From the NCBI GenBank assembly GCA_024628785.1, contig CP102404.1:930001-994000 (forward strand): DNA of 64,000 nt, read 5' to 3'. Made by a program: the position numbers and the translations under genes. The notes beneath the pieces were generated by a model, which saw only the letters and a list, made by a program, of their open reading frames with translations, did not search any database and had not been told where the DNA came from. This document shows positions 44,434 through 46,935 of this stretch, one piece after another. The DNA is from Fusobacteria bacterium ZRK30 (GTDB taxonomy: Bacteria > Fusobacteriota > Fusobacteriia > Fusobacteriales > Fusobacteriaceae). Numbering within the stretch: position 1 is the first letter of the stretch; the number at the start of each line of letters is the position of its first letter.

Positions 44434-44462
44434 TTGCTTTTTTCCTAAAAATTTGTTATAAT
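44434..44462 (+). promoter_or_regulatory. promoter upstream of the 34-aa ORF / glnN leader
   Basis: TTGCTT, 17-base spacer, TATAAT. It is the only good rightward promoter found before glnN, so it may serve both the small ORF and, by read-through, the riboswitch and glnN. Confidence 0.6.
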
Positions 44463-44504: not shown

Positions 44505-44609
44505 ATGGTTTTAAAAAAAATTGACAGATTAGACATTTTCATATTTAGCTTTACTTCAAAGATGGGCTTAGTATCTAAAAAACTAAAAACAGTTTCTTAT
44601 AGGGGATAG
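44505..44609 (+). CDS. 34-aa ORF in the glnN upstream region
   Basis: ATG behind TTGGAGGTAAGCAA, a good ribosome site. Product begins MVLKKIDRLDIFIFSFTSKM and is basic, with one short hydrophobic patch. Its stop lies inside the terminator hairpin that follows, so it could be a leader peptide or a small protein. No family recognised. Confidence 0.45.
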   Translation: MVLKKIDRLDIFIFSFTSKMGLVSKKLKTVSYRG

Positions 44610-44637
44610 TGACTTCGGGTCACTGTCCCCCTTTTTT
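44602..44637 (+). terminator. strong terminator after the 34-aa ORF
   Basis: GGGGATAGTGAC-TTCG-GGTCACTGTCCCC then T's: a long GC-rich stem closed near a stable TTCG loop. Confidence 0.85.
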
Positions 44638-44651
44638 AAAATTTATATAAA

Positions 44652-44780
44652 ACTTATATATCCCCATAATATGGTTGGGAGTTTCTAGGGTTTACCGCAA
44701 ATTAACCACTATAAGTGAATTTATGCCGCTATCGTCCAAGGCTTGTTTTTCACTTACTTAAAACATGTCTTGTTTTTTTA
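44652..44780 (+). ncRNA. purine-riboswitch-like aptamer and terminator upstream of glnN
   Basis: P1 is ACTTATA (44652-44658) with TATAAGT (44710-44716). Inside are the family's invariant blocks in order: ATATGG, GAGTTTCTA, CCGCAAAT (consensus CCGTAAAT) and ACTAT just before P1 closes. The GG of the first loop and CC of the second can form the loop-loop contact. The ACTAT joining segment has C at the specificity position, as in guanine types. Just downstream AAGTGAA (44713-44719) can pair with TTCACTT (44749-44755) in competition with P1. AAAACA-TGTC-TTGTTTT plus T's (44760-44779) could terminate. Confidence 0.65.
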
Positions 44781-44823
44781 TAAATTAATCACAACGAACA
44801 TTCAAACAACTTAGGAGGTCAAA

Positions 44824-46935
44824 ATGGAAAAAATTATTAATGAAACTAAAAGTGTACCTGAAATTTATGGAGATTATTGCTTCGACAAAACTACTTTGAG
44901 ACAGCGTGTCCCAAAGAGTGTATTCAAAGAATTTTTAGAGGTACAAAATGGTAGAAAGGAATTGACTCTTTCCATTGCTGAGGTAATAGCCAATGCTATG
45001 AAAGACTGGGCTATAGAAAAAGGAGCTACTCATTTTACCCACTGGTTCCAACCCCTTAATGGACTTACTGCAGAAAAACATGATTCTTTCATCTCTCCTA
45101 TCGGAGATGGACAAATCATAATGGAATTCTCTGGTAAAGAGTTAATTAAAGGAGAATCAGATGCATCTTCATTTCCAAATGGCGGACTAAGATCTACCTT
45201 TGAAGCCCGTGGATATACTGCCTGGGACACTACCTCACCTGCTTTTTTAAAAGATGATAATACAGGGATCACACTATATATCCCTACTGCTTTTGTTGCT
45301 TATACAGGAGAGGCTTTGGATAAAAAAGTACCTCTGCTCAGATCAATGAATGCCGTTGAAAAACAAGCTCTTAGAATCTTAAAGATCTTAGGAAACAACA
45401 CTTCTCAACATATTACTACATGTTTAGGAGCAGAGCAGGAATACTTCTTAGTTGAAAAAAACCTATTCAATAAGAGATTGGACCTGGCTCATACAGGTAG
45501 AACATTATTTGGTGCAAAACCTGCTAAATCACAGGAACTTAGAAGTCACTATTATGGAACTATAGAAGAGAGAGTGGCTGCCTATATGAGAGAGCTGGAC
45601 TTTGAACTATGGAGATTAGGAATCCCTTCAAAGACTAAACATAACGAAGTAGCTCCTAACCAATTTGAGCTTGCACCTGTATACAGTACTTCAAATGTAG
45701 CTACCGACCAAAATCAACTTGTGATGGATACTATAAACAAAGTGGCTATCAGACATGATTTAGTGGCATTATTACACGAAAAACCATTTGCAGATGTTAA
45801 TGGTTCAGGTAAGCATAATAACTGGTCTCTAGCTACTGATGATGGTATAAACTTATTTGATCCAGGGAAAAATCCTAAAGAGAATGCACAATTTTTAATC
45901 TTTGTAGCTGCTGTTATAAAGGCTGTAGATAAGTATGCACCACTTCTTAGACTATCTACTGCAAGTGCATCTAATGACAACAGATTAGGAGGACATGAAG
46001 CTCCACCAGCTATAATCTCTATCTTCTTAGGAGATGAGTTAGAGACTATCTTCAAAAAGACCGATGAAAAATTAGAAACTAGAAGTAAAATGGAAATTGG
46101 GGTAGATTCTTTACCTAAGTTATCTATGGATATCACCGATAGAAACAGAACTTCTCCATTTGCATTTACAGGAAATAAATTTGAATTTAGAATGCCTGGT
46201 TCCAGCCAAAGTACTTCTACACCTAATATCATGATAAATACTATTATGGCAGATGTATTAAAAGAGTTTGCTGATGAATTAGAAGGGGTAGAAGATAAGA
46301 CTAAGGGAATTCAAAAATTAATATCTAAAACATACAAAGAACATAAAAGAATCATCTTCTCTGGAAATGGTTATGGTGAAGAATGGGTAAAAGAAGCTAA
46401 GGAAAGAGGATTGCCTAATTTAAAATCTACTACAGATGTAATAGGAACTTATATTACTTCTGATACAATTGAATTATTTGGAAGACACGGAGTATTGTCT
46501 GAGGGAGAATTAATCTCTAGATACAATATCTATGCTGAAAATTATTACAACCAAATAGTAACAGAATCAGCTGTAATGATTAAGATGGCTGTTCAAGATA
46601 TCTATCCGGCATCAAATAGATACGCTTTAGAGCTGGCTGAAATAATTAAAAAATCTTCTAAAATATTAGGAGAAGGGTTCGCAGTAACTCAAAAAGAACT
46701 TCTGGCTTCTATCTTAAAAAATAATGCTGGTTTATATAATGCAGCTAAAAAACTAGAAGAAAAATTAGATGAGTTAAACAATTTAGAAGATATTACACTA
46801 AGTGTTAACTTCACTAAAGATGAACTATTGCCTCTTATGAAAGAATTAAGAGTTCATGGAGATAACTTAGAAGGAATAGTGGAACACAAGATGTGGCCAT
46901 TCCCGACTTACGAAGAATTATTATTTAAATTATAA
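44824..46935 (+). CDS. glnN: glutamine synthetase type III (GlnN)
   Basis: 703 residues, matching GSIII (about 700) rather than GSI. Assimilates ammonia into glutamine. Typical GSIII stretches are THWFQPLNGLTAEKHDSF, FPNGGLRSTFEARGYTAWD, LGAEQEYFLV, KHNEVAPNQFELAPVY, GSGKHNNWSL and NKFEFRMPGSSQS. AGGAGG site five bases before ATG. Its leader carries a purine-riboswitch-like element. Confidence 0.94.
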   Translation: MEKIINETKSVPEIYGDYCFDKTTLRQRVPKSVFKEFLEVQNGRKELTLSIAEVIANAMKDWAIEKGATHFTHWFQPLNGLTAEKHDSFISPIGDGQIIMEFSGKELIKGESDASSFPNGGLRSTFEARGYTAWDTTSPAFLKDDNTGITLYIPTAFVAYTGEALDKKVPLLRSMNAVEKQALRILKILGNNTSQHITTCLGAEQEYFLVEKNLFNKRLDLAHTGRTLFGAKPAKSQELRSHYYGTIEERVAAYMRELDFELWRLGIPSKTKHNEVAPNQFELAPVYSTSNVATDQNQLVMDTINKVAIRHDLVALLHEKPFADVNGSGKHNNWSLATDDGINLFDPGKNPKENAQFLIFVAAVIKAVDKYAPLLRLSTASASNDNRLGGHEAPPAIISIFLGDELETIFKKTDEKLETRSKMEIGVDSLPKLSMDITDRNRTSPFAFTGNKFEFRMPGSSQSTSTPNIMINTIMADVLKEFADELEGVEDKTKGIQKLISKTYKEHKRIIFSGNGYGEEWVKEAKERGLPNLKSTTDVIGTYITSDTIELFGRHGVLSEGELISRYNIYAENYYNQIVTESAVMIKMAVQDIYPASNRYALELAEIIKKSSKILGEGFAVTQKELLASILKNNAGLYNAAKKLEEKLDELNNLEDITLSVNFTKDELLPLMKELRVHGDNLEGIVEHKMWPFPTYEELLFKL

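Follow-up and report, generated by a model that had tools for sequence, protein, structure and literature searches.

A predicted guanine-class purine riboswitch in the leader of the type III glutamine synthetase gene glnN of a fusobacterium

Purine nucleotides such as AMP exert a classical feedback on the activity of glutamine synthetase. The leader of the glutamine synthetase gene glnN in Fusobacteria bacterium ZRK30, in which the original prediction had pointed out the building blocks of a purine-riboswitch aptamer, raises the question whether purines also act on the expression of this enzyme, which would place nitrogen assimilation under direct RNA-level control by the purine level. Such a link to glutamine supply had been called unusual, and we indeed found no report of a purine or guanine riboswitch together with glutamine synthetase or glnN in the open-licence literature searched, an absence that is weak evidence. 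Within the window, the stretch of 64,000 nucleotides analysed here (positions 930,001 to 994,000 of contig CP102404.1), the open reading frame at 44824..46935 (+) encodes 703 amino acids and is preceded by the ribosome-binding site AGGAGG at 44813..44818 (+). It carries three domains above the Pfam cut-off, GSIII_N (PF12437, 3.9e-74), Gln-synt_C (PF00120) and Gln-synt_C-ter (PF18318), and with its N-terminal, catalytic and C-terminal domains and a length of about 700 residues corresponds to the GlnN family, so that the assignment of the downstream gene to type III glutamine synthetase (GSIII) holds. It is the only GSIII and also the only PF00120 match in the genome, which is 98% complete.

An Rfam cmscan search of the whole window at the gathering threshold returned a single match, the Purine family RF00167 at 44634-44731 (+), which spans the full length of the model (positions 1-102) with 59.1 bits (E 1.2e-7). 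As the gathering cut-off lies at 37 bits and is exceeded by 22 bits, the search bears out the proposed purine aptamer. The aptamer core occupies 44652..44716 (+) and is closed by P1, which consists of seven perfect pairs (44652-44658 with 44710-44716), followed by P2 (44662-44667/44675-44680) with loop L2 (AATATGG, 44668-44674), the joining segment J2/3 (44681-44688), P3 (44689-44694/44702-44707) with loop L3 (CCGCAAA, 44695-44701) and the discriminator C74 at 44709, all on the forward strand. The core blocks that had been named from the sequence all fall into place, ATATGG as L2, GAGTTTCTA as J2/3, CCGCAAAT as L3 and ACTAT as J3/1 and P1. In the numbering of the xpt aptamer, which we take to apply here, U22 is at 44659, A23 at 44660, G46 at 44681, U47 at 44682, U51 at 44686, A52 at 44687, position 53 at 44688, A73 at 44708 and C74 at 44709. 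C74 is present together with U22, U47 and U51, which places the aptamer in the guanine class, and the kissing contacts between L2 and L3 are complete (G37 and G38 with C60 and C61, as well as U34 and A65); P3 contains a U-U mismatch and P2 also contains mismatches.

The aptamer thus resembles the guanine-I riboswitch of xpt-pbuX in Bacillus subtilis (RF00167), with which it has the three-way junction, the L2-L3 kissing loops, C74 and U22/U47/U51 in common. It differs from this type in that it stands before a glutamine synthetase gene, has position 53 occupied by G where xpt has C, and lacks one pair of P2, like most aptamers of the same genome. The glnA (glutamine) riboswitch RF01739 of cyanobacteria is also found in some cases on a glutamine synthetase gene, but its fold and ligand are different, and cmscan gave no RF01739 match within the window. 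From its sequence, we conclude that the element in the glnN leader is a real guanine-class purine riboswitch, predicted to bind guanine, that stands out by its target and by one core residue. That it is a chance resemblance and the leader contains no riboswitch at all is scarcely credible: the region is AT-rich and the folding energy is ordinary, the minimum free energy of the whole leader being no better than that of dinucleotide shuffles (z -0.07), but a chance match is ruled out by the margin over the Rfam cut-off, by the 89% identity shared with the genome's own purL aptamer and by the conservation of the core. Since the leader does not differ from its shuffles, the case rests on the covariance-model score and on conservation rather than on fold energy.

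The search for the aptamer before glnN in relatives, which had been proposed beforehand, found it in three congeners and in one species of another genus. Within the genus it precedes glnN at the same place in four species (G000, G007, G002 and G004), whose glnN genes are 99% (G007), 93% (G002) and, over the fragment available for G004, 98% identical to that of G000. The 65-nt cores of G000 and G002 show 1 difference, compared with 74 of 242 four-fold sites in glnN (31%; Fisher p 5e-8), and the same comparison yields p 8e-4 for G007 and 1e-3 for G004. The core therefore differs far less than the four-fold sites, indicating purifying selection on the aptamer core. In G005 there is no aptamer, and a short open reading frame with its terminator leads directly into the ribosome-binding site of glnN; the aptamer is also absent from the upstream DNA of G001 and from the 200 nt upstream in G006. 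In the other genus, G011 carries an 81.5-bit purine aptamer before glnN that is dissimilar to those of the G000 genus; here the order is aptamer, terminator, short open reading frame, terminator, glnN, and the aptamer and antiterminator forms are nearly isoenergetic. Among the glnN leaders of the family and order that were scanned one by one, a scan that left out some g4, g8 and g13 members, the aptamer was found only in the four species of the genus and in G011. A general association of purine riboswitches with GSIII was rejected, as the 80 best-matching GSIII loci of other phyla gave no purine aptamer with model R1 up to E 1, nor did the 18 of these 80 that were also scanned with Rfam; the same model recovers eight purine aptamers absent from its building set. 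At locus L178 a weak R1 match (E 0.012, 868-982) lies on the strand opposite glnN.

The competition between P1 and a downstream hairpin that the original prediction had proposed can be traced in the expression platform. The 3′ strand of P1 (44652-44658/44710-44716) has UAAGU in common with an antiterminator at 44713..44755 (+), in which 44713-44719 pairs with 44749-44755 and an inner GCC/GGC helix joins 44725-44727 to 44740-44742, and folding places an intrinsic terminator (terminator 2, that of the riboswitch) at 44737..44779 (+). The antiterminator can form neither together with P1 nor together with the terminator, whereas P1 and terminator are compatible. Unconstrained folding of the leaders gives the antiterminator in three of the four species, the two forms in G007 lying within 0.1 kcal/mol, and all four leaders form the terminator once the aptamer is enforced. 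A U-A to U-G change preserves the antiterminator pairing in G002 and G004, with one outer pair lost. The arrangement in which a P1 strand forms part of an antiterminator that excludes the terminator is the OFF layout of the xpt type, in which ample guanine normally silences purine genes and for which the same response is presumed here, and it is found in the four species and also in G011.

Taken as a whole, the leader is best explained by a guanine-I type purine riboswitch that would act as a transcription OFF switch for glnN, a reading we hold with good confidence on the grounds of sequence and modelled folds. Guanine binding would stabilise P1 and thereby withdraw the UAAGU strand from the antiterminator; with the antiterminator lost, the terminator would form and transcription would end before glnN, while scarcity of guanine would allow the antiterminator to form and glnN to be expressed. 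What speaks against this reading is that a cell whose only recognised glutamine synthetase is shut down by guanine could be harmed, short of a leaky switch or glutamine import, and further that a C-to-G change at position 53 (see below) disrupts a triple reported as fully conserved, that the association is narrow and that the leader folds no better than its shuffles. An ON switch, through which guanine would increase glnN expression, would spare the enzyme from shutdown at high guanine, but it is very improbable, given the compatibility of P1 with the terminator and not with the antiterminator, the outcome of enforcing the aptamer in four species and the same layout in G011.

A purpose for such a switch is suggested by the other purine aptamers of the genome, which contains 12 RF00167 matches including that of glnN. 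Judging from the protein sequences, we take the other aptamers to precede genes for adenosine deaminase, xpt, an NCS2 permease, two AzgA-type permeases and purL, as well as guaA, guaB, a bmpA-like lipoprotein, adenine deaminase and an EamA-like transporter. As nearly all of these 11 aptamers stand before purine genes, glnN appears as one member of a large purine regulon, which takes in the glutamine-using enzymes PurL and GuaA. De novo synthesis of GMP uses glutamine at PurF, PurL and GuaA, and a cell with plentiful purines would by this switch also lower its glutamine synthesis; the purine level would then probably also set glutamine production. Within this set, the aptamers before guaA (L007, 1501-1598) and before the EamA-like transporter gene (L012, 1501-1602) have GUAUCUAC as J2/3 and U at position 73, and that of L012 also has unusual loops, AUAUGC as L2 and GAGCAAAA as L3; by sequence, these two are possible specificity or tuning variants. 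In G011, two tandem purine aptamers about 155 nt apart (L152 and L164, G011:C3:142883-143139) precede a bmpA-like gene, both with U74 and the L2/L3 subtype of L012. A further aptamer of G011 (L167, G011:C10:102936-103032) lies upstream of a gene that reads as formate-tetrahydrofolate ligase (fhs), putatively another supply gene for purine synthesis.

The closest relative of the glnN aptamer is that of purL in the same genome (L006). With an identity of 0.89 the two form the most alike aptamer pair in the genome (mean 0.61, sd 0.09; next-best pair 0.77), their expression platforms align, and in a phylogenetic tree the glnN and purL aptamers of the genus group together with bootstrap/SH-aLRT values of 90/87, a support that is modest as the alignment has few columns. 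The simplest and most likely reading of these sequences is that the whole purL riboswitch, as the probable parent, was duplicated onto glnN, an event that would fall in the ancestor of the four species and would have placed the riboswitch unit between an older short-ORF/terminator attenuator and glnN. The glnN aptamer of G011 is too divergent to be placed and is likely to have a separate origin. Unlike the glnN copy, the purL riboswitch has C53, a full seven-pair P3 and a much stronger terminator, and its leader, in contrast to that of glnN, folds into aptamer and terminator without ligand. If true, this would be a case of a controlling switch copied between genes of one regulon, and parent and copy would allow a direct comparison of natural aptamer re-tuning.

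The residue at which such re-tuning may have occurred is the G at position 53 (44688..44688, +). In an alignment of 40 aptamers this position is C in 36, and 8 further aptamers inspected likewise have C or its equivalent (44 in all), G occurring only in the four glnN aptamers of the genus. The A23-G46-C53 triple has been reported as fully conserved, its C53-G46 pair belonging to the uppermost layer of the binding pocket (PMC3764141). In the glnN aptamers of the four species A23 and G46 are present, but the triple is broken by G53; this concerns a single consensus residue, and the aptamer still scores above the Rfam cut-off. The copy bears on whether the pocket truly needs a residue that has been described as fully conserved. 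Two departures had been read as hints of a variant ligand. The first, AGG after TTTCT, is a real departure, namely C53G, but U22, U47, U51 and C74, which touch the ligand, are all of the guanine type. The second, CGC for CGT in L3, was rejected as a ligand indicator, because positions 62-63 vary freely within the genome (CCGT, CCTT, CCTA). As C53G alters a stacking triple above the ligand and leaves the contacts guanine-type, a change in affinity or tuning is favoured over a change of ligand.

A variant ligand, with the effect of C53G on the G46 triple making the aptamer prefer a different purine, a nucleoside or a nitrogen-related metabolite, is accordingly unlikely. In its favour are the invariance of position 53 elsewhere, the atypical target gene, the selection on the G53 core and the precedent of natural guanine-fold variants, some of them associated with atypical genes, that bind other ligands, such as 2'-dG-I, 2'-dG-II, xanthine-II and guanine-II (PMC9295807). 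These known variants, however, alter ligand-contact positions or the length of J2/3 by insertions (PMC9295807), changes not seen in the glnN aptamer, where J2/3 length and U51 are normal and the guanine-contacting residues are intact, and the purL parent is of the ordinary guanine type. In the free leader, folding assigns the pairing of U51-A52-G53 with C74-U75-A76, which G53 makes possible, a probability of 0.3-0.6 in the four species and at most 0.05 in purL, and unliganded P1 reaches only 0.01-0.14 in the full glnN leader, being much less favoured than in purL. These values point to a guanine switch of reduced sensitivity and not to a new ligand, as far as secondary-structure energies, which ignore tertiary contacts and the ligand, can indicate sensitivity. 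Together with the weaker P3 and terminator, C53G would probably lower the sensitivity of the copy below that of its parent, which would suit the gene for the only recognised glutamine synthetase. It is about as improbable as a variant ligand that the copy is decaying, C53G having ended useful binding and left a constitutive leader or a purely structural remnant: the disfavoured unliganded P1, the mismatches in P2 and P3 and the lack of an aptamer in G005 would fit, but in three comparisons the core has changed far less than the four-fold sites, and both the terminator and most pairs of the antiterminator are still in place. The fuller account, to which we give somewhat less than even weight, is that the purL switch was copied to glnN and then acquired C53G, that self-pairing of the unbound pocket shifts the response to higher guanine or to a different ligand, and that the core is strongly selected. 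The riboswitch is ordinary in kind and uncommon in target, and the tuning hypothesis is testable.

Upstream of the riboswitch the leader contains a second regulatory layout. A candidate promoter (TTGCTT-17-TATAAT, 44434..44462, +), which was not among the listings of a consensus scan, has a perfect -10 and a weak -35 element, and the same block occurs in four relatives. It is followed by a short open reading frame of 34 amino acids with a strong Shine-Dalgarno sequence (44505..44609, +), which ends within the 5′ arm of terminator 1 (44602..44637, +; 13 pairs, then a T run; -22.9 kcal/mol), its stop codon lying inside the stem. A short open reading frame with its stop in or next to a terminator stem precedes glnN in 10 genomes of 4 genera, so this layout probably predates the riboswitch. 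The peptide contains no glutamine run and is weakly conserved, with non-synonymous changes about as many as or above synonymous ones. As a ribosome at the stop codon is expected to block the stem, the leader may act as a translation-sensing attenuator, and expression of glnN in the window would then need both read-through of terminator 1 and low guanine at terminator 2. In the folds of relatives the Shine-Dalgarno sequence of the short open reading frame pairs with its own coding sequence. In G013 the upstream layout of glnN is unlike the leaders of the other genera, and the open reading frame directly 5′ of the gene (L107) reads as a PII (GlnB-like) protein.
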